Part shown: positions 1 through 13,538 of the stretch, one piece after another
Position numbering within the stretch: position 1 is the stretch's first letter
Layout: the number at the start of each line of letters is the position of its first letter
From: an uncultured Microbulbifer sp.
GTDB taxonomy: Bacteria > Pseudomonadota > Gammaproteobacteria > Pseudomonadales > Cellvibrionaceae
Reading direction: 5' to 3'
Assembly (NCBI RefSeq): GCF_947504145.1
Contig: NZ_CANNGQ010000001.1
Location: 682,001-746,000 of the forward strand
Length of the DNA: 64,000 nucleotides
Notes under the pieces: generated by a model
Seen by the model: the letters and a program-made list of their open reading frames with translations, nothing else
Told to the model about the DNA's origin: nothing
Databases searched by the model: none
Made by a program: the position numbers and the translations under genes

Positions 1-1323
1 CGGGCACAATGGCACCTGCTGGACTGGGTAGGGTGCGCAACGCTGGGGGTGCAGAGCCCTGTGGCCGAAAAAATCGCGCGTACGCTGTCGCGTTTTGGCG
101 GGAGCGGGGATCATTTCTGTGTGGATGGTCAGCGCTACGCGTGGGCCGATGCATTGTGGCTAAATGCGGCGGTGGGCAATGTTCTGGAAATGGACGATGT
201 GCACCGCACATCAACGCTGCACCCGGGCCCGGTGGTGATCCCGGCGGCACTGGCGGTGGCTCAGGAAATCAAGGCGTCACCGCGGCAACTGTTACAGGCG
301 ATAGTGATCGGCTACGAGGCGGTGATACGTATCGGCCGCTCACTGGGCCGGGGTCATTATCGCTACTATCACAACACCTCTACCTGCGGCAGCTTTGGTG
401 CAGCGGCGGCTGCCGCGAGCCTGTTGCAACTGTCGCCGGAGCAGTGGGTGTGGGCGCTGGGTAACGCTGGCACACGCACCGGCGGGCTTTGGCAGATGCG
501 TCATGAACCGACCGACAGCAAGCAGCTACACAACGCCGAGGCAGCGCGCACCGGTGTGATGGCCGCAATGCTGGCGGCGGAAGAATTTCGCGGCCCGGCG
601 CGGTTGCTGGAAGGCGCGCAAGGCTTGTACGGCGCTACCTCCGCGGATGCGATGCCGGAAGCGGTAACCGCAGATCCGGAAGGTCCCTGGTTGATCTTTG
701 ATTGCAGTTTTAAGCCCTGGCCTGCCTGCCGGCACACCCACAGTGCAATCGACGGCGCCTTGGCCCTGGACTTGAACTCAGGCCAGGTTCGGGAAATCGA
801 ATCGGTGACAGTGGCGACCTATGCCGAAGCGCTGACATTTTGTGATCGGCCGCTACCCGCCGACCGAATTCAGGCGCAATTCAGTCTGCAACACTGTGTT
901 GCCATCTGCCTGCTGGAGGGGCGGCCACGCCTGGCGTCCTTCGAGGCGGATAAGTTACATCGCCCGTCGGTAGCCGCTTTGCGAGGCAAGGTGCGGGTGC
1001 TCGAAGACCAGGATATTTCCCGGGAATATCCACAGCAGTTTGGTGCTCGGGTCAGCGTGCGCTTCAATGATGGCAGTGAGCAGGTGGTACAGATTGCCGA
1101 TGCCTGGGGCGATCCGGAAAACCCGTTACAACGTCAGGATCTAATGGATAAGTGCCATACCCTGATGTCCGCGGCGCAGGTAAACGGGGGCGCGATTGAC
1201 AAAGTGTGTGAATCGACGCTTCAGCTGCTTGGTGCGGCGTCGCTGGATGGGTGGTTTGCGTCGCTAACCGATGCGCTTGCAGGTAAACCGGAGAGGAAAC
1301 CTGAAAGGAAACCGGAAAAATAG
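1..1323 (+). CDS. MmgE/PrpD family protein, 5' partial
   Basis: The reading frame is open from base 1, so the true start lies before the window; 440 residues are visible. The family contains 2-methylcitrate dehydratase (PrpD), cis-aconitate decarboxylases and iminodisuccinate epimerase, acting on branched di- and tricarboxylates. The typical family block with the asparagine/acidic run NVLEMDDVH, followed by a HPG motif, is at about 178-231, and a GALALD-type segment follows near 750-770. The C terminus ends in an odd repeated lysine/proline tail (KPERKPERKPEK). It faces a CoA-transferase gene convergently across a terminator. Placement beside CoA-transferase, lyase and MaoC genes supports a role with a branched carboxylic acid; the exact substrate cannot be read from the sequence. 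Confidence 0.88.
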   Translation, partial: RAQWHLLDWVGCATLGVQSPVAEKIARTLSRFGGSGDHFCVDGQRYAWADALWLNAAVGNVLEMDDVHRTSTLHPGPVVIPAALAVAQEIKASPRQLLQAIVIGYEAVIRIGRSLGRGHYRYYHNTSTCGSFGAAAAAASLLQLSPEQWVWALGNAGTRTGGLWQMRHEPTDSKQLHNAEAARTGVMAAMLAAEEFRGPARLLEGAQGLYGATSADAMPEAVTADPEGPWLIFDCSFKPWPACRHTHSAIDGALALDLNSGQVREIESVTVATYAEALTFCDRPLPADRIQAQFSLQHCVAICLLEGRPRLASFEADKLHRPSVAALRGKVRVLEDQDISREYPQQFGARVSVRFNDGSEQVVQIADAWGDPENPLQRQDLMDKCHTLMSAAQVNGGAIDKVCESTLQLLGAASLDGWFASLTDALAGKPERKPERKPEK

Positions 1324-1358
1324 TCGAGAAGGACAGAGCCGGGGATACCCCAAAAATA

Positions 1359-1384
1359 ACCGGAGCACTGGCTCCGGTTTTTTC
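1359..1384 (+). terminator. Rho-independent terminator after the PrpD-like gene
   Basis: A perfect stem ACCGGAGC/GCTCCGGT with an ACTG loop is followed by a run of T residues. The opposite strand reads the same hairpin followed by TTATTTTT, so it may also stop the convergent CoA-transferase transcript. Confidence 0.85.
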
Positions 1385-1401
1385 GTTGGGCGCAGTGCGC
1401 A

Positions 1402-2637
1402 TCAGGCCTCGGCGGTTTCCTTTTGTGGCGTGTTCGCTTTGTCCCGCAGAATGCCGCGATCGATCAGGTCCTGAATATCCTGTTCGCTCAAGCCCGCGGC
1501 ACGCGCAATTTCCGTACTGTGCTGGCCGGCGAGGGGCAGGTTGTGTCGAACACCCGGACGGTGAATATCGGCACCGTGTCCCAACTCAATGGGCAGTGCC
1601 GGCAAACGCGCGCTGCCGCCTTCCGGTAAATCCAGGTCGAGCAGGCCACCGCCGTGGTTGAGGTGCGGGTCGTCAAATAAATCGGCGGGTTTGTTGATGG
1701 GGGCGAAGGGAATGCCGGCGCGATCGAGGCGCTGCATCATTTCTTCCTTACTGAGGCTGGCGAACAGGGCTTCGATCTGTGGAATCAGGGTTTCCCGGGC
1801 GGCTACCCGTCCGGCATTGGTTGCCAGGTCTTCGTTCGCTGCCAGCTCATCGAGCGCAAACTCCGCGCAGAAGGCCCGCCACAGGGTGTCACTCACCACG
1901 CCGACAAACACTCGCTCGCCCTCGGCGCTGTGGAAAATATCGTAGATGGACCAGGCACTGCGGCGCACGGACATGGGCGGGGGTTCTTCGCCAGTGACCG
2001 CCTGCTGGGCCATATGCTGCCCAACAAGAAACGCGGTGGTTTCGAACAGGGAACTGGTGACACGCTGGCCTTCGCCGGTGTGCTGGCGCTGTTGCAGTGC
2101 TGAAAGTATGCCAATCACACCAAACATGCCGCCGGTGATATCGACCACTGAGGTGCCCGCGCGCAGCGGCCGGTCTGGCAGGCCCGTCATGTACGCGAGT
2201 CCGCCCATCATCTGGGTGACTTCGTCCAGGGCGGTGCGGTTTTCATAGGGGCCGCTCAGGAAGCCCTTCAGTGAGCAGTACACAATGCCCGGATTGCGCG
2301 CTTTCAGAGCGTCGTATCCGAATCCGAGGCGGTCCATGGCGCCGTGGCGAAAGTTCTCGATCACCACATCCGCGCTGTCGATCAGGTTGAGCGCCAGGGT
2401 GCGTCCTTCATCGGATTTCAGGTCGAGCGCCAGGCTCTTTTTGTTGCGGTTGTACATGGCAAAGTAACCTGCACCCGAACCTTTGAGGCGCCGTGTATTG
2501 TCGCCCTGGTAGGGCTCTACCTTGATGACCTCGGCGCCGAGGTCCGCGAGAATTCCGCCAGCGGCCGGCCCCATCACCATGTGGGTGAATTCGATAACTT
2601 TTATGCCCTGCAGGGGCAGGTTGGGGGTGTCAGCCAT
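1402..2637 (-). CDS. CaiB/BaiF (class III) CoA-transferase, copy 1
   Basis: A 411-residue protein of the formyl-CoA transferase/carnitine-CoA transferase family, which moves CoA between carboxylic acids through an aspartyl-CoA intermediate in the cytoplasm. The N-terminal Rossmann block (GIKVIEF, GAEVIKVEP, NRNKKSLALDL) is intact, and the probable catalytic aspartate is Asp138 in the ALDEVTQ motif. Start supported by GGAG seven bases upstream of the ATG. It is transcribed away from the HMG-CoA-lyase-like gene; the 130-bp gap between them carries an operator-like element. Probably activates an acid produced by the hydrolases of this cluster; donor and acceptor unknown. Confidence 0.92.
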   Translation of the reverse strand: MADTPNLPLQGIKVIEFTHMVMGPAAGGILADLGAEVIKVEPYQGDNTRRLKGSGAGYFAMYNRNKKSLALDLKSDEGRTLALNLIDSADVVIENFRHGAMDRLGFGYDALKARNPGIVYCSLKGFLSGPYENRTALDEVTQMMGGLAYMTGLPDRPLRAGTSVVDITGGMFGVIGILSALQQRQHTGEGQRVTSSLFETTAFLVGQHMAQQAVTGEEPPPMSVRRSAWSIYDIFHSAEGERVFVGVVSDTLWRAFCAEFALDELAANEDLATNAGRVAARETLIPQIEALFASLSKEEMMQRLDRAGIPFAPINKPADLFDDPHLNHGGGLLDLDLPEGGSARLPALPIELGHGADIHRPGVRHNLPLAGQHSTEIARAAGLSEQDIQDLIDRGILRDKANTPQKETAEA

Positions 2638-2713
2638 GGCATTTCTCCGCCGTTCAATTATTGGTTTATCCGGGTTGGCTCGGCAACCGGGGGTAGCTCT
2701 CGCTGCTTAATTG

Positions 2714-2740
2714 CATATATGATATAACAATAGATCTTTT
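2714..2740. promoter_or_regulatory. AT-rich operator-like element between divergent genes
   Basis: This stretch contains ATGATATA, then seven bases, then ATCTTTT. The same two words, nine bases apart, occur at 4617-4640 just upstream of the gntR-type gene. Location between the divergent CoA-transferase and lyase genes suggests a binding site for that regulator. Assignment is inference from the shared words. Confidence 0.4.
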
Positions 2741-2767
2741 AAGCAAGCCGGCAAAGCGAGTTGATCA

Positions 2768-3700
2768 ATGGCAAAGGTGGATATCGAAATCAGTGAGGTG
2801 GGGCCGCGGGATGGGTTACAGAGCATCCCCCAGATCATGGCCACCGAAGACAAGAAGGCGTGGATAAGCGCGTTGGCCGCCGCCGGGTTTGGCGAAATTG
2901 AAGTGGGTTCTTTTGTACCCGCCAAGATCCTGCCGCAGTTGGCGGATACCGCGGAAATTGTGCGTTTTGCGCGAGAAATTCCAGGGGTCACCGTGGCCGT
3001 GCTGGTGCCGAATTTACGCGGCGCCTCCGACGCGGTTGCCGCGGGCGCTCACAAGTTGACGATTCCGCTTTCGGTGAGTGAGACCCACAGCCTGAAAAAC
3101 CTGCGCCGCACGCACGCGCAGGTGCTGGATGAAGTGCGCGGCGTTGCGGATTTGCTGCGGGGATTACCGCAGGCGCAGCGCCCGCATCTGGAGGGCAGTC
3201 TTTCCACCTGTTTTGGCTGCACTCTGGAAGGCGCGGTGAGTGAGGACCTGGTGGTGCGTATGGCGGAAGCCTTGATCGACGCCGGCTGCGACGAAGTGGG
3301 CCTGTCGGATACCACCGGCTACGGCAACCCGGTGCAGGTACGGCGAATGATTGGCCGGGTGCACGAGGCGGTGGGGCGCGATCGCCTCACCGGCATCCAC
3401 TTGCACAATACCCGTGGCCAGGGCCTGGCGAACGTATTGGCGGCGGTGGAAGCCGGCCTGACGACGGTGGATGCTTCAATGGGGGGGATTGGTGGCTGTC
3501 CCTTTGCTCCCGGCGCCAGCGGCAATATCGTGACCGAGGATCTGGTATTCCTGCTGGAGGCCATGGGGCTGCGTACCGGGGTGGACTTCGACAAAATGCT
3601 CGAAGCGCGCAAGGTACTTCAGGCAGCCTTAACCGATGTTCCCCTGTACGGATTCACACCGGATGCGGGGCTGCCGAAGGGGTTTCAGCCGGGCGTTTGA
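2768..3700 (+). CDS. Hydroxymethylglutaryl-CoA lyase family protein
   Basis: A 310-residue TIM-barrel lyase of the HMGL family. HMG-CoA lyase cleaves 3-hydroxy-3-methylglutaryl-CoA to acetoacetate and acetyl-CoA, in leucine breakdown. Visible hallmarks are GPRDGLQ near the N terminus (Arg14, Asp15), the metal-binding IHLHNTRGQG around residue 210 and the active-site cysteine loop GGCPFAPGASGN around residue 244. Length matches the family. No liu/ivd leucine genes are next to it, so it may instead cleave another 3-hydroxy-3-alkyl acyl-CoA made by this cluster. It ends 25 bp from the convergent regulator gene. Confidence 0.9.
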   Translation: MAKVDIEISEVGPRDGLQSIPQIMATEDKKAWISALAAAGFGEIEVGSFVPAKILPQLADTAEIVRFAREIPGVTVAVLVPNLRGASDAVAAGAHKLTIPLSVSETHSLKNLRRTHAQVLDEVRGVADLLRGLPQAQRPHLEGSLSTCFGCTLEGAVSEDLVVRMAEALIDAGCDEVGLSDTTGYGNPVQVRRMIGRVHEAVGRDRLTGIHLHNTRGQGLANVLAAVEAGLTTVDASMGGIGGCPFAPGASGNIVTEDLVFLLEAMGLRTGVDFDKMLEARKVLQAALTDVPLYGFTPDAGLPKGFQPGV

Positions 3701-3717
3701 CTCGATTGCGGAAGTGC

Positions 3718-3734
3718 GCCGGCCACTAGCCGGC
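3718..3734. other. Short GC-rich hairpin between convergent genes
   Basis: GCCGGC-CACTA-GCCGGC forms a six-bp stem that includes the regulator gene's stop codon and follows the lyase gene. There is no T-run, so termination is doubtful. Confidence 0.3.
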
Positions 3735-4517
3735 CTTGAGGTCTTCCGCGGTCAAATCCATCTGGTACTGAAAACGGTCGGGGTGATACAAGACTTGCAT
3801 AAAATCTGCGAGCTTTTCCTCGCCGTTAATTTTGCAGTAGGAGCGCCGGGTCAGGCTGAGTAGTGGTGCACCCGGCGCGATGTCCAGTTCGCTGGCGACC
3901 GGTTCACTGGCGGCGATGGCGCTCAATGTCTGGGTGACGTGTGATATTTCCAGCCCGTGTTCGCGAAAGACTTCCAGTCGCGGCGTCTTGCTAAATTGGC
4001 GTGCGGAAATTTTGCCGTCCAGTCCGGTGGTCCAGCTGACGTAGTGTCCGAAAGGGGAGCCATTTCTCGCCCGGACGCGCTCGAGGTAGAGGGCTTGCTC
4101 TCCGGCCTCCAGTCCCAGTGCTTCCCGTATTTCGGCCGGGGGCTGCAATTGCTCACAGGCGCGGACTTTTACATCCGAGTGGCGAGCCATGCTTTCAATT
4201 TCCTGCAGCATTGCCACCAGCGGCGCTTTCACCGGGCGCGGTTTGTACTGGTAAATAACATGGGTGCCTTTGCCGCGTCTTCGTTCCACAAAACTTTCCG
4301 CAGCCAATTCATCCATGGCGCGCTTGGCGGTAATGCGCGATACCCCAAAGGCTTCCGCTAACTGGAGTTCCGTGGGCATCTGCGCACCGCGCTCGAGCGT
4401 GCCATTCACGATGGCGGTTTTCAGCAGGGTGTAAAGCTGAAAATACAGCGGCGTATGCGTATCTTCCGACAGCGAGTTCAGTTGTTGCTTGGTAAACAGT
4501 TGGGATACGGCGTCCAT
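3726..4517 (-). CDS. GntR family regulator with UTRA domain
   Basis: A 263-residue regulator of the HutC-type GntR subfamily. An N-terminal winged helix (PLYFQLYTLLKTAIVNG, then ELQLAEAFGVSRITAKRAMDEL) spans roughly residues 15-85; the C-terminal UTRA effector-binding domain with LYLERVRA and a late LLSLTRRSY strand fills residues 95-250. UTRA domains bind small catabolites and usually release DNA on binding. The ATG at 4517 is chosen; a GTG at 4613 would add 32 low-complexity residues unlike the family. It is encoded with the two hydrolases and the amidase downstream of a shared AT-rich element and is the likely local repressor of the cluster. Confidence 0.9.
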   Translation of the reverse strand: MDAVSQLFTKQQLNSLSEDTHTPLYFQLYTLLKTAIVNGTLERGAQMPTELQLAEAFGVSRITAKRAMDELAAESFVERRRGKGTHVIYQYKPRPVKAPLVAMLQEIESMARHSDVKVRACEQLQPPAEIREALGLEAGEQALYLERVRARNGSPFGHYVSWTTGLDGKISARQFSKTPRLEVFREHGLEISHVTQTLSAIAASEPVASELDIAPGAPLLSLTRRSYCKINGEEKLADFMQVLYHPDRFQYQMDLTAEDLKAG

Positions 4518-4616
4518 GAGGCGGGCTCTTATGCGGTATGCCCCGGAATCGCGTCGGCACTGTAATATCGGGGCCGGCGCGGCGGGGTGCTGGAGTGGTG
4601 CTGGTGAAAGCACCTA

Positions 4617-4640
4617 ATGATATATCTTTTTATATCTTTT
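4617..4640. promoter_or_regulatory. Operator-like palindrome upstream of the GntR gene
   Basis: GATATATCTTTTTATATC (4619-4636) is an inverted repeat GATATA-N6-TATATC. It shares ATGATATA and ATCTTTT with the element at 2714-2740. Placement 100 bp ahead of the regulator start fits autoregulation; binding is inferred. Confidence 0.4.
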
Positions 4641-4659
4641 GCCAGCGCAGGGAAATTGC

Positions 4660-5601
4660 CTACCCAGGCGCTGCCATCGATTTGCAATGGCTCAGCAGTT
4701 CACCGGCCGGGGCGCTGAACACACCCGGTTGCGCGGTAATAAACCCGAGGGCGCGCTCCAGATACGCGATGCGATGGGGTTGCCCCAGCATCCAGGGATG
4801 AATATTGAGTGCGAGTATGCGGCCGCCGCTGTGTTCGGCTTCCGTCAGCAGGAACCGACAGGCATCTTCGATCTGCTCCTGGTAAGACGCTTCCGAATGC
4901 TGGTTGTTGCGCAGGATGAACTGGTCCTCCAGTTCCGTGGACAACGGCATAGCCCACAGATTGCCGTTGTCTGTGTGGAAGGGATAGGGCATGTCGTCGT
5001 TCACCCAATCGCAAAGATATTCCACCCCTTCGTCGGCGAGCAGGTTGGGGGTATTTTCACTGTGCACCTTCCCCGGGCTGAGCCAGCCCCTGACCGTTTG
5101 CCCGGTGTATTTCTGCAATGTCGCCAGGGTTGCGCGTATTTGTTCGCGCTCCGCTTCCAGCGGTTGGCCGCCGTAATGGGGGCGGTCCATGTTCCAGCCG
5201 TGGGCGATGATCTCGTCACCGCGGGACCGCAGTACCTCCATTAGGTACGGGCTGCGCTCGGCAAGCTCTCCATTGATGGCGAAGGTCGCGCGTATCTGGT
5301 GCTGGTCCAACGCCTTGAGAATCCGGTAGATGCCTACACGATTGCCGTAATCGCGCAGGGAAAAATGCCGCAGATCGGGATAGGGCATGGTCATGCCTCC
5401 CGGGGGCGGGAAGGGTTTTCCCTGTTGATTCAGCGGGAAAAACTGCAGGCTCACATTGACCCACAGGGCCAGCTTCTTGCCGTCTGGCCAGTGCACCGGG
5501 TTGCGCTGGCTGAGCATTTGCCAGTCGTACCAGTTGTGATCCATGCCGTGGCGACGTTGGGGGTATTCGAGGTGGGACTTATCCAGTTGCGAGCTGCTCA
5601 T
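4660..5601 (-). CDS. PuuE-like polysaccharide deacetylase family hydrolase A
   Basis: A 313-residue NodB-fold protein. Its sequence follows the metal-independent allantoinase (PuuE)/cyclic imide hydrolase branch: RDYGNRVG around residue 83, then IRATFAINGE, DEIIAHGWNMD, VRGWLSPGKVHSENTPNLLADEGV and CDWVNDDMPYPF. Members open cyclic amide or imide rings. No signal peptide is present, which argues against cell-wall polysaccharide as substrate. The ATG at 5601 overlaps the upstream paralogue's stop by four bases (ATGA), so translation is likely coupled; an upstream start would run into that gene. The exact ring substrate is unknown. Confidence 0.85.
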   Translation of the reverse strand: MSSSQLDKSHLEYPQRRHGMDHNWYDWQMLSQRNPVHWPDGKKLALWVNVSLQFFPLNQQGKPFPPPGGMTMPYPDLRHFSLRDYGNRVGIYRILKALDQHQIRATFAINGELAERSPYLMEVLRSRGDEIIAHGWNMDRPHYGGQPLEAEREQIRATLATLQKYTGQTVRGWLSPGKVHSENTPNLLADEGVEYLCDWVNDDMPYPFHTDNGNLWAMPLSTELEDQFILRNNQHSEASYQEQIEDACRFLLTEAEHSGGRILALNIHPWMLGQPHRIAYLERALGFITAQPGVFSAPAGELLSHCKSMAAPG

Positions 5602-6554
5602 GCACAGACCTCCGCCGTCATATTGGATTTTTCCGCAATATCCTGACGCGCCTGATCGTAATAATGCGTGCGGTAGTACTCGGCGATTTCGCGGCCGGTG
5701 GTCACCCACACGTCGCTGTGGCCGGTGATGTATTCCAGCGCTTCTTCAAAAGCGCGCAGGCGATGGGGGCAACTTACCTGGTAGTTGTGCGTGGGGATGC
5801 ACATCACCGTGCCACTCTCCGCGCCTTCCGCATACAGCCGGTCAAAATTGTCTTTCAGCATTTGGCCGTAGCGGCGCGGCTCTACCTTGTTCACCACGTA
5901 CGCGATGGTGTCGTTCATCTCCAGAGAATAGGGAATCGACACAAACCGCTTGTTACTGCGCAAGTTGATCGGGGTGGGCTGGTCATCGTGGAACAGATCG
6001 CAGGTGTAATAGCCGGCGTCATCCCCAAACAGCTCGGTGCCTACTTCGGCAAACAGGTCCAGGGTCTGCTCGGAGTGGGAGAGGGCGGGTGCCAGATAAC
6101 CGGCACATTTCTGGCCGGTGTGGCGATAGATGGTTTCAATGGAATCACGAATCATCTCCCGCTCCTGCGCCTCGGACATACCGTAGGTGTAGCGAGTGTT
6201 GTAGATGCCGTGGCTGAAAAATTCCCAGTCGCGCTCCTTGCACAGCGCGATGATTTCCGGATGGTGGTCACACAGAGCCGTGGACAGGGAGATGGAGCCG
6301 CGCACGCCGTATTTATCCAGCACCGCGATCTGGCGCATATGACCGACTCGATTTCCGTAGTCGCGAATACTGTAGCCGGGCACCGCCGGGCTGGGGTGGG
6401 GCCAGGCTTTGCGCTGCGGGTTGGCCGGTGGGTTAAGTTCGTAGAACTCGATGTTGGGCGCCACCCAAAAGGCCAGACGTGCGCCGCCGGGCCATTGAAT
6501 TTTTGGCCGATTTTCGTAGGGCCAGTAATCGTAAAAGCCGGGATCTGCTTTCAT
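5598..6554 (-). CDS. PuuE-like polysaccharide deacetylase family hydrolase B
   Basis: A 318-residue cytoplasmic paralogue of the downstream hydrolase, sharing RDYGNRVG, a WEFFSHGIYNTR-type motif, the HSEQTLDLFAE segment and a late DDQPTP. The two proteins are clearly diverged, so this is an old duplication and they may be subunits of one enzyme or work on different rings. The PuuE branch hydrolyses allantoin-type and imide rings. It sits nine bases downstream of the isochorismatase-type amidase, so ring opening and amide hydrolysis are encoded together. Substrate inference comes from neighbours only. Confidence 0.85.
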   Translation of the reverse strand: MKADPGFYDYWPYENRPKIQWPGGARLAFWVAPNIEFYELNPPANPQRKAWPHPSPAVPGYSIRDYGNRVGHMRQIAVLDKYGVRGSISLSTALCDHHPEIIALCKERDWEFFSHGIYNTRYTYGMSEAQEREMIRDSIETIYRHTGQKCAGYLAPALSHSEQTLDLFAEVGTELFGDDAGYYTCDLFHDDQPTPINLRSNKRFVSIPYSLEMNDTIAYVVNKVEPRRYGQMLKDNFDRLYAEGAESGTVMCIPTHNYQVSCPHRLRAFEEALEYITGHSDVWVTTGREIAEYYRTHYYDQARQDIAEKSNMTAEVCA

Positions 6555-6563
6555 GCCCGCACC

Positions 6564-7232
6564 TCAATCGTTGCTGCCATTGAGCCACTCGAACACCTCG
6601 GCCACATCCACCACGTCGGCGTACTTCAGTGAGAGGTCGGTGAGGTTGGCAAAGTGGTAGCTCTCGTGTTTATCGGCCACGCACTCTTCGGGCACGATGG
6701 TGCGGTAGCCCCGTGACAAGCTGTCTACTGCCGTGGCCCGAATACAGCCGGAGGTGGAACCGCCGGTAATCACCACGGTATCGACCTGGTGCCATACCAG
6801 CAGGGATTGCAGCTGGGTTTCAAAAAAGGCACTGGGCATTTTTTTGCAGTAAATCACATCCCGCTGCCGGTCGATCTCGAGGCGGTCGTCGAACTGGCTG
6901 CGCTCACTGTCAAATTTGATGTTCTGCAGGGAGTCGGGGGTATCGGTGCGGGTACCCCAGACGCCGGCATCTTCAGCGGAGTCCATGTACGCCACCTGAG
7001 TCCACACTACCGGCCAGCCTTTTTCCCGAAACACTTTGGCCAGCTCGTTGATGTGGTGCATCTGGTCTGGGTCGGTTGCGTAGGCGGTTTTGAACAGATC
7101 GGTGCGGGTGTAGGCCTTCTGAGGGTCGACGTTGACGAGCACGGCCTTGTTGCCGAAGCCGAACCGTTTGCGCGCAGGATTGGCCTTGATTTCCTCGTAG
7201 AGTTCGCGGGCGGTCTTGTTGCTTGTTTCCAT
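6564..7232 (-). CDS. Isochorismatase-family cysteine hydrolase (amidase)
   Basis: A 222-residue cysteine hydrolase. The family triad is visible: Asp36 in VNVDPQ, Lys131 (or Lys130) in YCKKMPSAFF and Cys163 in GGSTSGCIRATA, preceded by the usual cis-peptide region. Relatives include N-carbamoylsarcosine amidase, nicotinamidase, ureidoacrylate and maleamate amidohydrolases. With ring-opening hydrolases directly downstream in the same operon, release of ammonia (or carbamate) from a half-amide is the most economical role. ATG at 7232 is preferred over the GTG three bases earlier because AAGG lies seven bases ahead. It is divergent from the RedY-like operon. Confidence 0.88.
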   Translation of the reverse strand: METSNKTARELYEEIKANPARKRFGFGNKAVLVNVDPQKAYTRTDLFKTAYATDPDQMHHINELAKVFREKGWPVVWTQVAYMDSAEDAGVWGTRTDTPDSLQNIKFDSERSQFDDRLEIDRQRDVIYCKKMPSAFFETQLQSLLVWHQVDTVVITGGSTSGCIRATAVDSLSRGYRTIVPEECVADKHESYHFANLTDLSLKYADVVDVAEVFEWLNGSND

Positions 7233-7432
7233 CACTCAGCCTTGTTGTTGCTTCTCGTATTGGCATCATTTGACGTGACCGGGGGGTAACTGTCAGCTGT
7301 GCCAGTTTGATGGCATAGGTATACCCCGGCGATGTGCCCGCCAACACGACAAAAGTCAAAGATGGCGCCCGCCGATTGGGTGACCATAGCTTCGCAATCC
7401 ATCACCAAACGTGTTTCTGCGAGGTTACCGCC

Positions 7433-7741
7433 ATGACCATGATTGTTGTCCTCTTCAACCTCAAATCCGGTGTGAATGCCTCCGACTACGAGGAATGGGC
7501 GCGCACCACGGATCTGCCCAATGTGAACCGGCTGCCGTCTGTCGCCCAGTTTTCCGTGCTGCGCACCACCGGTCTGCTCGGCTCCGACGCGCCGGCACCT
7601 TTTCAGTATGTGGAACTGCTGGAAGTGAAGGATATGGCCCAGCTTGGTGGCGATGTATCCAGTGAGACCATGCAGAAGGTCGCTGCCGAGTTTCAGCAGT
7701 TTGCCGACAACCCGCAGTTCATGTTGACCGAGAGTATTTGA
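7433..7741 (+). CDS. RedY/HapK-like small protein
   Basis: A 102-residue protein beginning MTMIVVLFNLKSGV, with the pattern YEEWARTTDLPNVNRLPSV and a later YVELLEVKDM strand. This looks like the RedY-like HapK family, small ferredoxin-like alpha/beta dimers known from prodigiosin-type gene clusters, where they assist pathway chemistry. Family recognition is by eye and moderately secure; function here is unknown. Start chosen for GAGG ten bases upstream. It leads a seven-gene operon with 10 bp to the SDR gene. Confidence 0.65.
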   Translation: MTMIVVLFNLKSGVNASDYEEWARTTDLPNVNRLPSVAQFSVLRTTGLLGSDAPAPFQYVELLEVKDMAQLGGDVSSETMQKVAAEFQQFADNPQFMLTESI

Positions 7742-7751
7742 GGAGGCGGCC

Positions 7752-8606
7752 ATGACCAATCTGGCAAGTAAATATCCGGAACTTGAAGGCAAGGTCGCCG
7801 TCATTACCGGTGCCGGGCGCAAGCAGGGCCTCGGGGAAATGATGGCCCGTCGCCTGGCGGCCGAAGGTGTGAAAGTGGTGCTGACCGATATCGGCGCCGC
7901 CGCCGGCAGTAACCTGCCCGCAGATGCCATTGGTACCAGTGAAGAGCTTGAGCAGATCGCCGCGGATATCCGCGCGGCCGGTGGCGATGTCGCCACCTTT
8001 GCTTGCAATGTACTGGAGCCGGCAGAAGTGGAAGCCGCTGCAGAGTTTGCACGAGGTCAATACGGGGCGCTGGATATCTGGGTCAACAATGCCGGCGTCG
8101 GCTACCTGATGCAGCCGATCGTTGAAATGGATGACGACAAATGGGACACCGTGCTGGGCGTCAACCTCCGCGGAGCCTTCCTGGGGATCAAATACGCCGC
8201 ACGCGCGATGATTGCCCAGGGTCGCGGCGGCCGCATTATCAATATCGGCAGCCAGGCCTCCAAGTCCGGTTTCCCGCACGCGTCTGCATACACCGCATCG
8301 AAGCACGGTCTGGTGGGCCTGACCCGTTCTGCCGCTATGGAGCTCGGGCCGGAAAAGATCACCGTGAACACCATTTGTCCGAACCATATCACCACCGGTC
8401 TCGGTGCCTGGCAGAACGCGCACTTCTCCGAAGTGACTGGCAAGGGCCACGACAAATATATGGAAGATATGCGCGCGCGTATTCCGCTTGGTCGCCCGGG
8501 CCTGCAGGAAGATGTTGCCAAGGCCTGCGCCTTCCTGTGCTCTGATGAAGCCAGCTATATCACCGGCGAATCCATGAATGTCTCCGGTGGTGAGGAGTAC
8601 CACTAA
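7752..8606 (+). CDS. SDR family NAD(P)-dependent oxidoreductase
   Basis: A 284-residue short-chain dehydrogenase. The cofactor loop TGAGRKQGLG is at residues 19-28, NNAG follows near residue 114, and the catalytic YTASK motif is near residue 180, with a C-terminal TGESMNVSGG segment. It would oxidise or reduce a hydroxyl/keto group, but the substrate is not predictable. GAGGAGG stands just before the ATG, and the stop overlaps the next gene's start (TAATG). An insertion-like stretch after the first beta strand (about residues 40-60) is longer than in minimal FabG proteins. Confidence 0.92.
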   Translation: MTNLASKYPELEGKVAVITGAGRKQGLGEMMARRLAAEGVKVVLTDIGAAAGSNLPADAIGTSEELEQIAADIRAAGGDVATFACNVLEPAEVEAAAEFARGQYGALDIWVNNAGVGYLMQPIVEMDDDKWDTVLGVNLRGAFLGIKYAARAMIAQGRGGRIINIGSQASKSGFPHASAYTASKHGLVGLTRSAAMELGPEKITVNTICPNHITTGLGAWQNAHFSEVTGKGHDKYMEDMRARIPLGRPGLQEDVAKACAFLCSDEASYITGESMNVSGGEEYH

Positions 8607-9442
8607 TGGTGTGGTGCGCGCGGAGCCTGTTGTTTGTGCCGGGCCACCGCCCGGAGCGGTTCAGCAAGGCGCTGGCCAGTACCGCGGACCTGGTGTGTAT
8701 CGACCTGGAAGACGCCGTGCCGCTGGCGGACAAGGCGACTGCCAGACAGGCCGTTCACAAATTTCTTTCCGCCTGTGCCGAGGAGGATAGGGCGCGATTG
8801 GTCGTGCGGATCTCCGCGGCAAATAGCGAGCACTGCAAGCTCGATTTGCAGGCGCTACACGACGCCCCCAGACCGGCGTTTTTTATGCTGGCGAAAACCG
8901 AGTCTGCACAGCAGTTAACCTACGTCTCTTCGACACTGGGCTCTGGCGGTGCGCGCTGGATCGCGCTGATTGAAAGCGCGCGCGGTCTGCTGAGTGCAGA
9001 TGCCATTTGTGCGTCGCCCACGCTTGCGGCGGTGATGTTTGGCGGTGGCGACTACGCCGCGGAGATCGGTGCCGAGTTTGCCTGGGAGCCGCTACTGTTT
9101 GCGCGCTCACAGCTGGCGCTGGTGGCCGCTGCGCACCGCTTGCCCTGTATCGATGTCCCGTATCTGGATATCCGCAATAGCGAGGGGCTGGTAGCGGAAA
9201 CCCGCCGAGTGCGTGCGCTTGGCTATGTGGCCAAAGCGGCCATTCACCCAAACCAGGTGGCGGCGATACACGCAGGGTTGTCGCCATCGGAAGAAGAAAT
9301 CGAGAAAGCGCGACGTATCGTAGATGCCTTCAATAAGGCCTCTGGTGGCGCGGTAACCGTAGATGGTCGCATGGTCGATCAACCCATCGTAGACAGCGCC
9401 TGCCGTTTGCTGGCGCTTGCACAACCTGAAACAGTGGAATAA
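8606..9442 (+). CDS. CitE-like CoA ester lyase (HpcH/HpaI family)
   Basis: A 278-residue TIM-barrel lyase. RSLLFVPGHRPERF and CIDLEDAVP (residues 31-39) are the hallmark N-terminal motifs, followed by the metal-binding ALIESARGL and FGGGDYAAEIG. Relatives are citrate lyase beta subunit, L-malyl/beta-methylmalyl-CoA lyase and citramalyl-CoA lyase. Its immediate pairing with a MaoC hydratase repeats the arrangement of itaconate and mesaconyl-CoA pathways, so it probably cleaves a malyl- or citramalyl-type CoA thioester into a 2-oxo acid and a shorter acyl-CoA. Start overlaps the SDR stop by one base, indicating translational coupling. Confidence 0.9.
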   Translation: MVWCARSLLFVPGHRPERFSKALASTADLVCIDLEDAVPLADKATARQAVHKFLSACAEEDRARLVVRISAANSEHCKLDLQALHDAPRPAFFMLAKTESAQQLTYVSSTLGSGGARWIALIESARGLLSADAICASPTLAAVMFGGGDYAAEIGAEFAWEPLLFARSQLALVAAAHRLPCIDVPYLDIRNSEGLVAETRRVRALGYVAKAAIHPNQVAAIHAGLSPSEEEIEKARRIVDAFNKASGGAVTVDGRMVDQPIVDSACRLLALAQPETVE

Positions 9443-9447
9443 AGAGC

Positions 9448-9966
9448 ATGGCTGGAGAAGTAAAAAAAGTCGGTGAAAACCGTTATCGCGAAACCTTCGG
9501 GCGTTTTTTCGAAGACTTCACCGTAGGCGATATCTACGAGCACCGCCCCGGTCGCACCATCACCGAGACTGATAACACCTGGTTCACCCTGCTGACCATG
9601 AACACCCACCCAGCGCACTTCGACAAGGAGTACGCCAAGGGTACCGAGTTCGGAAAACCGATTGTGTGCAGTCCCTTTACCGTCGCCCTGATGGTCGGCA
9701 TGAGCGTTACCGACATCAGCCAGAAGGCCATTGCCAATCTGGGTTGGGATGACATCAAGATGACCGCACCGCTGTTTGTGGGCGACACCCTGTATGCGGA
9801 ATCCGAAGTGCTGGCATCGCGCGAATCCAAGTCCCGCCCGAATCAGGGCATCGTTACCGTGCGCACGCGCGGCTTCAATCAGGATGGGATCGAAGTGTGC
9901 TCCTTCATGCGCAAAGTACTGGTGTGGAAGCGTGGTTCCGAAATGGAAGACAAGGTTAATTACTGA
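9448..9966 (+). CDS. MaoC family dehydratase
   Basis: A 172-residue hot-dog-fold hydratase of the mesaconyl-/itaconyl-CoA hydratase type. The hydratase loop reads TMNTHPAHFD (residues 50-59): by eye, the usual aspartate position is Asn52 and the catalytic histidine His57 is kept. Such enzymes add water to an enoyl-CoA to give the malyl-type substrate of the CitE-like lyase encoded five bases upstream. The acyl-CoA dehydrogenase that could supply the enoyl-CoA follows 15 bp downstream. Exact acyl group unknown. Confidence 0.9.
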   Translation: MAGEVKKVGENRYRETFGRFFEDFTVGDIYEHRPGRTITETDNTWFTLLTMNTHPAHFDKEYAKGTEFGKPIVCSPFTVALMVGMSVTDISQKAIANLGWDDIKMTAPLFVGDTLYAESEVLASRESKSRPNQGIVTVRTRGFNQDGIEVCSFMRKVLVWKRGSEMEDKVNY

Positions 9967-9981
9967 TTTGCGGAGGTAGCG

Positions 9982-11151
9982 ATGAGCTGGACGGCAGAAG
10001 ACGAGGTCGCGATCCTCGATACAATTGATCGCTTCGTGGCAAACGAAGTTGCCCCCATCGCGCGGGAAAAAGATCTCGCGGATGAATATCCCCACGAACT
10101 CGTGGAGACCATGAAAGAGCTGGGCCTGTTCGGTGCCACCATCGGCACCGACTACGATGGCCTGGGGCTTTCCGCCTCTGTTTACGCGCGCATCGTGCAG
10201 AAAATTTCCGCGGCCTGGATGGCGCCCGGCGGTATTTTCAATTCGCATCTGATCATGGCGGCGGCGATAGAGCGTTTTGGCACAGAAGAGCAAAAGCAGC
10301 GTTTTCTCCCGTCCATGGCGATGGGTGAACTGCGTGGCGGTATTGCGCTCACCGAGCCCAATGCGGGCACCGACCTGCAGTCAATCGGATGTGTGGCCCG
10401 TCGCGATGGGGACGATTACGTAATCAACGGCAGCAAGATGTGGATCACCAATGCACTGAATGGCAATTGCCTGGCGCTGCTGGTGAAGACCGATCCCCAC
10501 GCCGAACCCCGCCATCGCGGCATGTCGATGTTTGCCATACGCACCAAGGATGATGAGGGCAATTTGTTGCCCGGGGTTGAGATCAACAAGATCAAGAAAA
10601 CCTGTTACCGGGCGATCGATACCTGTGAAGTGGTGTTCACGGATTTCCGCGTCTCCGCCAATGACCTGATCGGTGGTGAGGAAGGTCGTGGATTCCAGAT
10701 GGCGGTGGGTGGCCTGGAGCTCGGCCGCATCAATGTCGCCGCCCGCGGCGCCGGCATTGCGCAGGGTGCACTCAAGCTCGCACTGCGCTACGCCCAGGAG
10801 CGTGAGACCTTCGGCAAGCCGATCATCAAGCACCAGGCGATTCAGCTGAAGCTGGGTGAGATGGCGGCGAAAGTGGAGGCGGCCAAGCTGCTGGTGGATC
10901 AGGCCGCACGCATGTACGACACCGGCCAGCGCTGCGATCTGGAAGCGGGCATGGCCAAATACTTTGCCAGCGAAACCGGTGTGTTCTGTGCCCAGGAAGC
11001 CATGCGTATTTTCGGCGGTTATGGCTTTTCTACCGAATATGAAATCGAGCGCTACTACCGCGACGCCATGCTGATGTGCGTGGGTGAGGGCACCAACGAA
11101 CTGCAGCGCATTATTATCGCCAAGCAACTGGCCGAGCGCGATGCAGGCTAG
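9982..11151 (+). CDS. Acyl-CoA dehydrogenase 1
   Basis: A 389-residue FAD flavoenzyme of normal length. Family motifs are ALTEPNAGTD, WITNALNGN, the RETFGKPI segment and the C-terminal FGGYGFSTEYEIER, with the catalytic-base glutamate in GEGTNELQR near residue 369. It makes an alpha,beta-unsaturated acyl-CoA and passes electrons to ETF. Position between a MaoC hydratase and two CoA-transferases suggests oxidation of a dicarboxylyl- or branched acyl-CoA, as in methylsuccinyl- or glutaryl-CoA routes. A good GGAGG precedes the ATG. Confidence 0.94.
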   Translation: MSWTAEDEVAILDTIDRFVANEVAPIAREKDLADEYPHELVETMKELGLFGATIGTDYDGLGLSASVYARIVQKISAAWMAPGGIFNSHLIMAAAIERFGTEEQKQRFLPSMAMGELRGGIALTEPNAGTDLQSIGCVARRDGDDYVINGSKMWITNALNGNCLALLVKTDPHAEPRHRGMSMFAIRTKDDEGNLLPGVEINKIKKTCYRAIDTCEVVFTDFRVSANDLIGGEEGRGFQMAVGGLELGRINVAARGAGIAQGALKLALRYAQERETFGKPIIKHQAIQLKLGEMAAKVEAAKLLVDQAARMYDTGQRCDLEAGMAKYFASETGVFCAQEAMRIFGGYGFSTEYEIERYYRDAMLMCVGEGTNELQRIIIAKQLAERDAG

Positions 11152-11178
11152 GGTGGAGCAGGTGGAGCCGGTGGAGCA
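11152..11178 (+). repeat. Three-copy 9-bp tandem repeat
   Basis: GGTGGAGCA, GGTGGAGCC and GGTGGAGCA follow directly after the acyl-CoA dehydrogenase stop codon and before the ribosome binding site of the next gene. Purine-rich, SD-like repeats could affect ribosome hand-over or be a slippage product. Confidence 0.7.
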
Positions 11179-11200
11179 GGCGGAAAAAGAGGAGCAGGGT

Positions 11201-12400
11201 ATGGAGAGCAATCCATTGCCACTGGCAGGACTGCGTGTGATCGCGGTGGAGCAGTATGGCGCCGGCCCATTCGGCTCCATGCAGTTGGCCGATATGGGGG
11301 CGGAGGTCATCAAGATCGAAAATCCCCACACCGGCGGCGACATTGCGCGCAAGAGTGGTCCATTTTTTCTGGGCGACAACGACAGCGAATTTTTCCAGAC
11401 GTTTAACCGCAACAAGAAAAGCCTCACCCTGGATCTTAAAAAGCCAGAGGGCCGTGAGGTTTTTGAAAAGCTGGTGGCGACCGCGGATATCGTGGTGAAC
11501 AACCTGCGCGGGGACCAGCCAGCAAAACTGGGTCTGGATTACGACGCGCTGGGGCGGATCAATCCGAAGATCGTTTGTGGCCATCTGTCTGCCTACGGCC
11601 GGGATAACGACCGCGCCGACTGGCCCGGCTACGATTATCTGATGCAGGCGGAAGCCGGGTATATGGCACTTACCGGTGAGCCGGACAATCCACCCACGCG
11701 GTTTGGTCTGTCGATGGTGGATTTTATGAGCGGGGTAACCCTCGCAATGGGTGCGCTCGGCGCGCTAGTAGGCGTGTTGCGTGGCGGTATCGGCCGGGAT
11801 GTAGATGTTTCCCTGTTCGATGTGGCCATGACCCAGTTGACCTATCCTGCCACCTGGTACCTGAACAGCAATCACGAAGTTTCCCGTGTCGCGAGATCCG
11901 GGCACCCATCCGCCACTCCCTGCCAGATGTTCCGCACCGGGGATGGCTGGGTGTTTGTGATGGCGATGACGGAAAAATTCTGGTGTGCCCTCGCAGAGGG
12001 TGTGGGGCATCCCGAATGGCTGGATGATACGCGCTTTACCGGCCCCGCCGAGCGGCTGGCAAACCGGCCCGCGTTGAGCGCGCTGCTGGACGACGCTCTG
12101 AGTCAGGCGCCGACGGAACATTGGCTGACCCTGTTTAAAGGCAAGCTACCCATTGCACCGGTCAATAATTTTGCGCAGGCGATGGACAGTCCCTGGCTGG
12201 CGCAGATCGGGATGATTCAATCACTGCCCCACGCGGCCAAGGCGGATTTTCGCGTGGTCGCAAGCCCTGTGAAGCTTTCTGGTGAGCGTCCGCAGGGGCG
12301 CGGGTGTGCAGCGCTTGGCGCCGACACCGATATGCTGCTGTCGACGCTCGGCTATGACGCGCAAGCGCGCGCGCGGCTGAAAGAGACCCAGGTGGTTTAG
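11201..12400 (+). CDS. CaiB/BaiF CoA-transferase, copy 2
   Basis: A 399-residue class III CoA-transferase with LAGLRVIAVEQYGAGP, GAEVIKIENP, NRNKKSLTLDLK and the probable catalytic Asp145 in GYDYLMQAEAGYMALTG. The ATG at 11201 is preferred because GAGGAG lies eight bases upstream and homology begins directly after it; the frame extends further upstream through the 9-bp repeats but that part is low complexity. Closest in style to succinyl-CoA-dependent transferases for dicarboxylates. It is followed 19 bp later by a third, well-diverged family member, so the two probably have different substrates. Confidence 0.92.
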   Translation: MESNPLPLAGLRVIAVEQYGAGPFGSMQLADMGAEVIKIENPHTGGDIARKSGPFFLGDNDSEFFQTFNRNKKSLTLDLKKPEGREVFEKLVATADIVVNNLRGDQPAKLGLDYDALGRINPKIVCGHLSAYGRDNDRADWPGYDYLMQAEAGYMALTGEPDNPPTRFGLSMVDFMSGVTLAMGALGALVGVLRGGIGRDVDVSLFDVAMTQLTYPATWYLNSNHEVSRVARSGHPSATPCQMFRTGDGWVFVMAMTEKFWCALAEGVGHPEWLDDTRFTGPAERLANRPALSALLDDALSQAPTEHWLTLFKGKLPIAPVNNFAQAMDSPWLAQIGMIQSLPHAAKADFRVVASPVKLSGERPQGRGCAALGADTDMLLSTLGYDAQARARLKETQVV

Positions 12401-12419
12401 AACTTTTTAAGGAGTACTC

Positions 12420-13538
12420 GTGAAACTCGACGGTATTCGTGTCCTCGACCTGTCACTGTTTCTTCCCGGCCCACACCTCACCCAGTTGATGGCCGACCAC
12501 GGTGCCGAAGTCATTAAGGTGGAGCCGCCGGCCGGTGAGCCGACGCGGGAAATTGGCCTCAAGAAAAACGGCTTTTCCGTGTGGTTCCGCAATACCCACC
12601 GCGGTAAAAAAAGTCTCTGTCTCAATCTCAAGGAGCCTGCGGACAAGGAACTGCTGCTGCGTCTGGTGGACGACGCCGATGTGTTCGTTGAAGGTTTTCG
12701 CCCCGGTGCTATGGCGCGTCTGGGGCTGGATTACGCCACTCTCGCACAGCGCAATCCACGGCTGGTGTACTGCTCCATCTCCGCCTACGGCCAGACCGGC
12801 CCCAAAAGGCTGAAGCCCGCCCACGATCTGAGTATTCAGGCCGACTCGGGGACGGTATTTCTGAATGAAGGCGCGGATGGCAAACCCGCAATGCCGGCGA
12901 TGCCGGTTGCGGATATGGCGGCGTCACTGATGGGCCTGTCCGGTGTGTTGATGGCACTGTTGCGCCGGGAAAAAACCGGTCAGGGTGACTACCTGGATAT
13001 CTCCATGCAGGACAGCCTGGTGGCCTGGTTACCCAACGCGCTGGGGCCGGTGTTTGCCGAGGGTCGCTCGCCGGACGTCAAGCAGGAGCGCTCCTGGGGC
13101 GGCAACGCCATGTATCAGATCTACGAGACCCGGGACCAGCAATTCCTGACATTGGGCGGCAGCGAAATCAAGTTTGCCGAGAACCTGTTCAACCTCCTGG
13201 GTGAACCGGAATGGCTGGCCGTATGCAAACAGCCGCCGGGCTCCCAGCAGGACGCAATCGAGTTCCTGCGCTCGCGGTTTCTGCAAAAGGATCTGAGTGA
13301 GTGGCAGAGCATTTTAGATGGTATTGATGTGTGCTGGTCACCGGTGCGCAAACTGGATCAGGCGCTGGAGGAAGAGCATCTCCAACAGCGGGGTATGGTG
13401 TTCGAGGATGCCGTGGGCAATCGGCACCTGGGCAACCCTATTCAGTTTCACAACGAGCCCGCCGTTCTGAACACTAAGTTGCCCAGGCCCGGCGAGCATA
13501 ATCAGGAATATGCTGATTCCCCGTTAATAGTGGAGTAG
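12420..13538 (+). CDS. CaiB/BaiF CoA-transferase or acyl-CoA racemase, copy 3
   Basis: A 372-residue class III CoA-transferase family protein starting with GTG behind AAGGAG. GIRVLDLSLFLPGPHLTQLMADHGAEVIKVEPP and HRGKKSLCLNL are typical. The active-site region reads AHDLSIQAD (His135, Asp136), a form also seen in alpha-methylacyl-CoA racemases, and CGQTGP-like YGQTGP precedes it. It could thus epimerise a 2-methylacyl-CoA rather than transfer CoA, which would suit a branched substrate handled by the acyl-CoA dehydrogenase. It is the last gene of the operon and overlaps the convergent carboxypeptidase gene by 15 bp. Confidence 0.88.
   Translation: MKLDGIRVLDLSLFLPGPHLTQLMADHGAEVIKVEPPAGEPTREIGLKKNGFSVWFRNTHRGKKSLCLNLKEPADKELLLRLVDDADVFVEGFRPGAMARLGLDYATLAQRNPRLVYCSISAYGQTGPKRLKPAHDLSIQADSGTVFLNEGADGKPAMPAMPVADMAASLMGLSGVLMALLRREKTGQGDYLDISMQDSLVAWLPNALGPVFAEGRSPDVKQERSWGGNAMYQIYETRDQQFLTLGGSEIKFAENLFNLLGEPEWLAVCKQPPGSQQDAIEFLRSRFLQKDLSEWQSILDGIDVCWSPVRKLDQALEEEHLQQRGMVFEDAVGNRHLGNPIQFHNEPAVLNTKLPRPGEHNQEYADSPLIVE

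Follow-up and report, generated by a model that had tools for sequence, protein, structure and literature searches.

Gene content of the window

The present study analyzes a cluster of catabolic genes in the genome of an uncultured Microbulbifer sp., beginning from a stretch of 64,000 nucleotides referred to here as the window (G000:C1:682001-746000). Central to the analysis are three adjoining genes on the minus strand, hereafter the triad, which encode two ring hydrolases of the polysaccharide-deacetylase fold (PuuE-A and PuuE-B) and an isochorismatase-family amidase (Isochor1). An earlier note, written from the letters of the sequence, had placed a possible pathway for a cyclic imide, amide or ureide at positions 1-13538; all of the enzyme classes it named were found there, each over its Pfam cut-off, and gene calling bore out its tightly spaced units (the triad and then GntR on the minus strand, HapK to CaiB-3 on the plus strand). 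Gene starts and tight spacing are those of gene calling, and family assignments are Pfam matches over cut-off. In window positions, the genes are as follows.

1..1323, plus strand: PrpD2, MmgE/PrpD family, 3′ part (Pfam MmgE_PrpD_N/C)
1402..2637, minus strand: CaiB-1, class III CoA-transferase (PF02515, E 6.4e-114)
2768..3700, plus strand: HMGL1, HMG-CoA-lyase family (PF00682, E 1.8e-48; NCBIfam PRK05692 290.2 bits, cut-off 246)
3726..4517, minus strand: GntR/UTRA regulator (PF00392 and PF07702; start from gene calling)
4660..5601, minus strand: PuuE-B, polysaccharide-deacetylase-fold ring hydrolase (PF01522, on the longer frame 4660-5709)
5598..6554, minus strand: PuuE-A, polysaccharide-deacetylase-fold ring hydrolase, proposed imidase (PF01522, E 3.9e-8)
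6564..7232, minus strand: Isochor1, isochorismatase-family amidase, proposed half-amide hydrolase (PF00857, E 2.3e-30)
7433..7741, plus strand: HapK/RedY-like small protein (PF11639, E 2.6e-11; start from gene calling)
7752..8606, plus strand: SDR-1, short-chain dehydrogenase (PF13561, E 6.8e-60)
8606..9442, plus strand: CitE/Ccl-like lyase, HpcH_HpaI (PF03328, E 3.6e-34; RipC model 237.7 bits, under cut-off 375)
9448..9966, plus strand: MaoC/Ich-like hydratase, MaoC / mesaconyl-CoA hydratase (PF19315 and PF01575; RipB/Ich model 249.6 bits, under cut-off 340)
9982..11151, plus strand: acyl-CoA dehydrogenase, ACAD (PF00441, PF02771, PF02770)
11153..12400, plus strand: CaiB-2, class III CoA-transferase (PF02515, E 9.7e-113, on the longer frame 11084-12400; start from gene calling)
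12420..13538, plus strand: CaiB-3, class III CoA-transferase (PF02515, E 1.1e-101)

The window edge truncates PrpD2, which starts 75 bases before the window; the full gene is L003:17926-19323. CaiB-1 and HMGL1 form a divergent pair. The top NCBIfam model for CaiB-1 was succinate-glutarate CoA-transferase (238.9 bits, under the cut-off of 750), a match that is no more than suggestive, since CaiB-2 has the same best match.

Conservation and partners of the triad

Neighborhoods were compared for the best 80 of 361 confirmed PuuE-A relatives, i.e. the closest ones, at a standard threshold of 40% identity and 0.6 coverage; 19 of the 80 loci were shorter than 20 kb. PuuE-B was present in all 80 and Isochor1 in 79, the 80th locus (L091) beginning near a contig end and including only part of the amidase. 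Gaps within the triad were below 200 bases in 77 loci, and in the other three (L097, L098 and L114) gene order was unchanged and it was the PuuE-A/PuuE-B gap test that failed. The loci are spread over Gamma-, Alpha- and Betaproteobacteria and Bacteroidota, and the linkage of the triad is beyond chance. Within the order to which this genome belongs, PuuE-A was 79–85% identical in 12 other genomes. GntR relatives (40% identity or more) were near the triad in 12 of the 80 loci, and a search for a shared GntR operator 5′ of the triad found no exact dyad common to more than two of 12 upstream regions, so co-regulation by GntR is not supported.

The best PDB match of PuuE-A was the PuuE allantoinase 3cl6 (E 1.2e-24), with 3qbu matched too (E 1.7e-9). 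Against the allantoinase PuuE model, with a cut-off of 424.6 bits, the two window hydrolases scored 113.8 and 94 bits and PuuE-C, a third deacetylase-fold hydrolase encoded to the left of the window, 272.1 bits, all of them below the cut-off. PDB matches of Isochor1 include N-carbamoylsarcosine amidohydrolases, and its Asp37, Lys131 and Cys164 showed no variation across 79 sequences; these residues match the catalytic Asp-Lys-Cys of such amidases. The locus holds a ring hydrolase of the PuuE/deacetylase fold adjoining an amidase, as sought for an imidase plus amidase, and a specificity of the PuuE-like hydrolases for polysaccharides, as far as their sequences indicate, is not supported.

Just left of the window, before PrpD2, is a pair of LeuC-like and LeuD-like genes, AcoL and AcoS, a LeuCD-like hydratase that the earlier note could not have seen, its genes being a short way beyond the window edge. 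AcoL reached 679.6 bits against PRK12466, a model of the LeuC subfamily (cut-off 531), and 548.1 bits against the leuC equivalog (cut-off 560.25). At the standard threshold, a gene of the isocitrate-lyase/PEP-mutase family (ICL/PEPM) was near the triad in 31 of 80 loci, AcoL in 30, CaiB-1 in 24, and MaoC, CitE and ACAD in three each. At a looser threshold (30% identity or more) an AcoL relative was in the flank of 47 of the 80 loci, making it the commonest partner; the identity and coverage thresholds for these near-triad counts were selected after the first table had been inspected, and the counts depend on them. ICL/PEPM alone accompanied AcoL in 24 of the 47, an HMG-CoA-lyase-family gene (HMGL) alone in 15, both in three and neither in five, i.e. 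a gene of one or the other lyase family in 42. The compact order AcoS-AcoL-GntR and then ICL/PEPM-Isochor1-PuuE-A-PuuE-B is repeated in Halomonas, Billgrantia, Marinobacter, Alloalcanivorax and Hydrogenophaga, and many Bacteroidota loci have the order HMGL-AcoL-AcoS-CaiB-Isochor1-PuuE-A-PuuE-B, with HMGL and AcoL only distantly related (about 30–40%) to those of this genome. Exchange of the lyase with retention of imidase, amidase and hydratase is as would be expected if the four steps were one chain, and the frequency of LeuCD and lyase partners implies that the product is a dialkylmaleate instead of simple maleate or succinate.

AcoL probably differs from the housekeeping LeuC: all 10 triad genomes that were searched, from the 13 in the order sample described below, carry a further LeuC-like gene in addition to a LeuC. 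Each genome had one LeuC relative 46–50% identical to AcoL plus a closer or triad-adjacent one (51–67% in eight of the other nine genomes). In G073 the triad-adjacent gene is in two pieces, 48% and 53% identical, and in G146, G184 and G073 the two LeuC relatives are near-equal in identity, the second being marked by triad adjacency only. The split in G073 (G073:C1:625308-626680) is into two adjoining frame pieces, from a frameshift or a sequencing error. Isopropylmaleate is the intermediate of LeuCD, so an alkylmaleate would be the natural type of substrate for AcoL/AcoS. The ICL/PEPM protein of the island described below gave strong PDB matches to petal death protein 1zlp (2e-57), to methylisocitrate lyases and to 2,3-dimethylmalate lyase 3fa3 (1.2e-46), and scored 276.1 bits with the prpB model (cut-off 354.4). 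Petal death protein acts on ethyl-methyl-malate, an activity for which no confirming paper was among the matches listed.

Plasmids gave further, more distant relatives in 26 annotated records; the 15 listed are 49–63% identical to PuuE-A, and of five that were examined three have a LeuCD and lyase set. Burkholderia plantarii p1 carries the compact set (GntR, LeuCD, ICL/PEPM, amidase and two deacetylase-fold genes), an Acidiphilium multivorum plasmid carries CaiB, HMGL, amidase, two deacetylase-fold genes and LeuCD, and the Sphingomonas JE1 plasmid has all of the latter together with ICL/PEPM, so both lyase options. The B. plantarii and A. multivorum clusters (L155 and L157) are on plasmids typed conjugative with insertion-sequence genes nearby, and because of this the pathway looks mobile.

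The earlier note had also treated the MaoC/CitE pair as a normal partner of the hydrolases, which was not borne out by the three of 80 loci with MaoC, CitE and ACAD. By its own reasoning a joint pathway would fail if the hydrolase-amidase unit were usually found without the CoA genes; this was so for MaoC/CitE and not for CaiB-1 (24 of 80, 40% identity or more), and with MaoC/CitE near the triad in so few loci the single joint chain fails for that pair. In the order sample, MaoC relatives (59% or more) were in eight of 194 genomes, together with the triad only in this genome and in G158, where the two are ~1.4 Mb apart; at the seven other MaoC loci an ACAD, CaiB or CitE relative adjoined in six and a PuuE match in none. 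In Microbulbifer agarilyticus, M. elongatus and Alteromonas lipolytica, HapK, SDR, CitE, MaoC, ACAD and CaiB-2 are by the triad, with CaiB-3 in two of the three, and PuuE-C is between CitE and SDR. In this genome PuuE-C is about 17 kb away and adjoins PrpD1, and in Tistrella a PuuE-C relative (61%) is among PrpD, ACAD and CoA-transferases. Most likely the MaoC/CitE operon serves as a parallel arm, and its ACAD-MaoC-CitE chain may act on the product of PuuE-C instead of that of the triad.

The surrounding island and co-occurrence with RCCR

Reading and gene calling of C1:590001-746000 placed the triad in a catabolic island of ~78 kb, from about 617 kb to 695.5 kb of C1, inside which the window begins. 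M14 peptidase and pseudouridine synthase genes lie beyond the right border at 695.5 kb, and at the left border is a tRNA-Pro (G000:C1:616267-616343), a possible integration point. Two island proteins are over the cut-off of RCC_reductase PF06405 (54.6 and 52.5 bits, cut-off 24.9), and a profile of these RCCR proteins and six relatives matched plant RCCR first (E 4.8e-19), the best bilin reductase being at 6.5e-5. The protein at C1:663987-664727 weakly matches Fe_bilin_red (22 bits, cut-off 31). Adjoining its gene is that of a 942-residue animal-haem-peroxidase-family protein (G000:C1:661061-663889), a candidate for oxidative ring cleavage. The protein g36 (G000:C1:630530-631276; L010:530-1276) has no Pfam match and aligns over nearly its whole length with the RCCR-relative alignment (hhalign probability 97.7, E 1.5e-12), by which it is assigned as a diverged protein of the RCCR/bilin-reductase superfamily; a PDB search with the g36 profile was set aside, giving a single weak, implausible chaperone match. 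In the RCCR genomes G095, G106, G134 and G158, g36 is kept with a module of nitrilase-family, ACAD-like, ALDH, isochorismatase, FAD-monooxygenase and Amdase genes. Other island genes encode a chlorophyllase-like protein (26.9 bits, cut-off 26), a Rieske/VanA_C protein with NdmA as its best PDB match, a rubredoxin reductase and two putative TonB receptors (read by eye), and left of AcoL/AcoS are PuuE-C, a second PrpD, an AMP-binding gene and an amidase gene.

Co-occurrence was assessed in samples of 194 genomes of the order and 274 of the class. In the order PF06405 was over cut-off in seven genomes, from four families and five genera, and a PuuE-A relative (78% identity or more) was in 13, with Isochor1 (74% or more) directly adjoining in 13 of 13. 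The triad was in all seven RCCR genomes versus six of 187 others (Fisher p 9e-10, without phylogenetic correction), and the distance from RCCR to triad was 33 kb in this genome, 6 kb in G106, 25 kb in G095 and 49 kb in G134. In the class sample PF06405 was in two genomes and PuuE-A (E <= 1e-100) in three, with both in this genome only. The plasmid search gave no RCCR match.

A second half-amide module at G000:C1:634184-639966 comprises an alpha/beta hydrolase (by eye and NCBIfam), an isochorismatase 38% identical to Isochor1, a FAD monooxygenase and two Amdase-family proteins, and recalls the maleamate-maleate end of nicotinate breakdown. The protein g29 (G000:C1:621557-622528; L009:11557-12528) is 56–79% conserved at loci in genomes with RCCR-family genes and is predicted to form a double lipocalin-like barrel, with DUF3598 Npun_R4044 as the best PDB fold, and could bind a tetrapyrrole. 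The protein g77 (G000:C1:679067-679795; L003:15067-15795) has no Pfam match, occurs close to the triad at 14 of the 80 loci and is predicted to form a barrel like Brucella DUF1849. These predicted folds do not tell the function of g29 or g77.

Discussion

Gene content, families, linkage and the invariant amidase residues are observations, from which we infer all of the substrates and reactions that follow. It appears reasonably probable that the triad and its partners are the imide branch of tetrapyrrole catabolism, leading from dialkylmaleimides by way of half-amide, dialkylmaleate and alkylmalate to pyruvate and an acid. The substrates would be methyl-ethyl-, methyl-vinyl- and carboxyethyl-methyl-maleimide (the last being haematinic acid), all of them monopyrroles with which the breakdown of chlorophyll and haem ends. 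The PuuE pair would open the maleimide to a maleamate, Isochor1 would convert this to dialkylmaleate and NH3, and AcoL/AcoS would hydrate the dialkylmaleate to a substituted citramalate or malate, on the model of LeuCD, which hydrates isopropylmaleate. C-C cleavage to pyruvate and an acid could then be by the ICL/PEPM-family lyase, as with 2,3-dimethylmalate lyase, or alternatively by CoA transfer (CaiB-1) followed by cleavage by HMGL1. By arithmetic, atom balances close both for haematinic acid (C8H9NO4 + 3 H2O -> NH3 + pyruvate + glutarate) and for methyl-ethyl-maleimide (C7H9NO2 + 3 H2O -> NH3 + pyruvate + butyrate). The ring scheme of the earlier note, in which PuuE-fold hydrolases open an alkyl-substituted cyclic imide and the amidase cleaves the half-amide, followed in some species by CoA genes, agrees with the families and the conserved linkage and is retained here, with a center that had been misplaced.

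Import of the tetrapyrrole and its fragmentation would be the work of the upstream island, with its RCCR-family reductases, chlorophyllase-like protein, Rieske oxygenase and putative TonB receptors; assignment to chlorophyll in particular is based on family membership and linkage. The genes HapK-SDR-CitE-MaoC-ACAD-CaiB-CaiB and PuuE-C would form a second arm for an imide needing prior dehydrogenation, plausibly the succinimide that the reduced ring D of a chlorin would yield, and here the proposal is at its weakest. A still wider scheme, for which we hold somewhat less than even confidence, would be complete mineralization of chlorophyll: plant-like opening of the macrocycle by RCCR-family proteins of the island and its fragmentation to monopyrrole imides, with maleimides passing through imidase, amidase, the LeuCD-like hydratase and either of two interchangeable lyases, ring-D succinimide passing through PuuE-C, CoA-transferase, ACAD, MaoC and CitE, and bacteria with the end route only feeding on released imides.

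Several alternatives bear on this proposal. All of the genes are adjacent in the window, divergent around 7232-7433, and they could form one chain of imide or ureide ring opening, deamidation, CoA activation and action of ACAD, MaoC and CitE, as in the itaconate and mesaconyl-CoA routes. Adjacency of the MaoC operon, PuuE-C included, to the triad in M. agarilyticus, M. elongatus and A. lipolytica and the setting of the Tistrella PuuE-C relative among PrpD, ACAD and CoA-transferases would agree with this, but just 3 of 80 loci have MaoC/CitE close to the triad, MaoC relatives (59% or more) are without the triad in six of eight genomes of the order sample and the RipB and RipC models are under cut-off, making a single chain unlikely. 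The itaconate route proper was rejected on these scores (RipB 249.6 versus 340, RipC 237.7 versus 375). As a somewhat unlikely alternative, the triad could serve in general detoxification of, or nitrogen scavenging from, small imides (succinimide, maleimide and alkyl maleimides of any origin) and have been recruited only secondarily to a pigment island. Against this, a dialkylmaleate is the product implied by the frequent LeuCD and lyase partners, and the triad is in seven of seven RCCR genomes of the order sample; such a unit would nonetheless be consistent with the compact clusters in Halomonas, Marinobacter and the Burkholderia plasmid, with the finding of RCCR in none of eight compact-cluster genomes searched and with some triads that have no partner gene in the flank.

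Ureide or pyrimidine breakdown, by a PuuE-like allantoinase or hydantoinase and an amidase of ureidoacrylate or carbamoylsarcosine type, is very improbable and was rejected. The scores are far under cut-off (PuuE model 113.8 and 94 bits versus 424.6; RutB model 29.9 versus 377.95), and the partner genes are unfitting, with no evident role for a LeuCD-like hydratase and malate-type lyases, against PDB neighbors that are PuuE allantoinase and N-carbamoylsarcosine amidohydrolase and one distant relative beside hydantoinase A/B genes. Finally, the island might break down bilins or haem, not chlorophyll, the imides then being haem-derived. We consider this doubtful, with two proteins over the RCC_reductase cut-off, a profile that prefers plant RCCR to bilin reductases and a chlorophyllase-like protein set against the weak Fe_bilin_red match and the fact that haem yields such maleimides too, as given in the overview in PMC7318184.

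There were also several observations that weigh against the proposed imide branch or its tie to chlorophyll. No LeuC, ICL/PEPM, HMGL or CaiB-1 relative was found in 22 of 80 loci, 14 of these having full flanks, and ~37 kb separates the ICL/PEPM gene of this genome from its triad. The two other plasmid relatives examined are in Salipiger abyssi, among amidases and hydantoinase A/B genes, and in Comamonas endophytica, with ACAD and AMP-binding genes and without LeuCD. RCCR is within ~50 kb of the triad in only four of seven genomes, being at least 0.4 Mb away in G068, G158 and G174, and for G068 and G174 none of the other island genes was matched in the 20 kb surrounding the triad. One genome of the class sample, G484 (84% complete), has RCCR and no PuuE-A at E <= 1e-100. 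From the 80 loci 50 genomes were picked by group and not at random, leaving 30 loci outside the set; in the 49 of these that were searched, RCCR was over cut-off in 14 and at E <= 0.001 in 16, with none in the eight compact-cluster and none in the six Bacteroidota genomes among them. In the order RCCR goes with the triad, and because only 14 of the 49 triad genomes have RCCR, the triad is broader than RCCR. The Rieske protein resembles demethylases such as NdmA, and no pheophorbide a oxygenase model was among its matches. The active site of plant RCCR has a Glu and an Asp; in an alignment read by eye the Asp aligns with Asp and the Glu falls in a gap. A search for Staygreen Mg-dechelatase matched in none of 10 genomes, which is uninformative in that the control likewise had no match. 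Lastly, leaves gave haematinic acid but no maleimides according to the excerpt of PMC7318184, where reports of maleimides in lake sediments and in senescent leaves are also cited.

The proposed imide branch shares parts with several known systems. Itaconate degradation by Ict-Ich-Ccl (RipABC) has the same MaoC-type hydratase and CitE-type lyase families, RipB and RipC being the best NCBIfam models, but here both scores are under cut-off and class III CoA-transferases, ACAD, HapK and SDR are added. The 2,3-dimethylmaleate branch of nicotinate fermentation has a dimethylmaleate hydratase and a 2,3-dimethylmalate lyase, with the dialkylmaleate formed from 2-methyleneglutarate; it is alike in using an aconitase/LeuCD-family hydratase and a PEP-mutase/ICL-family lyase on a dialkylmaleate, and differs in having no imide source and in that here CoA-transferase and HMGL can replace the lyase. 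Aerobic nicotinate degradation ends in maleamate and maleate with NicD, NicF and NicE, like which the second module of the island has alpha/beta hydrolase, isochorismatase and Amdase-family proteins, although here they are tied to the RCCR-superfamily g36, a nitrilase-family gene and a flavoprotein gene. Chlorophyll breakdown in plants is by chlorophyllase, pheophorbide a oxygenase (PaO) and RCCR; RCCR-family, chlorophyllase-like and Rieske proteins are here in one island, which in contrast is bacterial and clustered, with several RCCR-superfamily paralogues, candidate mineralization modules and no PaO-type model match. For the first two steps the nearest likeness is in the fungal nicotinate pathway, where the cyclic imidase HxnM is followed by the amidase HxnN, HxnM being 64% identical to the cyclic imide hydrolase of P. 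putida and related to PuuE and 3qbu, as described in the excerpt of PMC9304392. These systems too have a PuuE/3qbu-type ring hydrolase and then a nitrogen-freeing amidase, but act on a six-membered ring of hydroxyglutarimide type (PMC9304392), unlike the paired hydrolases, isochorismatase-type amidase and dialkylmaleate-type partners here.

About 10^12 kg of chlorophyll is made and degraded each year (PMC7318184). Among the products of heme and chlorophyll, the overview there gives methyl-, methyl-ethyl- and methyl-vinyl-maleimide and haematinic acid, and it describes ring D as hydrogenated in chlorophylls except Chl c. RCCRs are distant relatives of bilin reductases, and bilin reductases have been reported in heterotrophic bacteria (PMC10151467); no such island is described in the excerpt of that paper. 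In titles and abstract openings, among the matches listed, we found no bacterial gene cluster for chlorophyll to maleimide or maleimide to pyruvate, with the maleimide query swamped by general biodegradation terms, and no described bacterial enzymes returning maleimide end products to central metabolism. The genes analyzed here look like a candidate final stage that would turn chlorophyll-type ring fragments into ordinary metabolites. If this is true, they would provide a genomic marker for pigment-feeding bacteria, and several unannotated families would be placed in a pathway.

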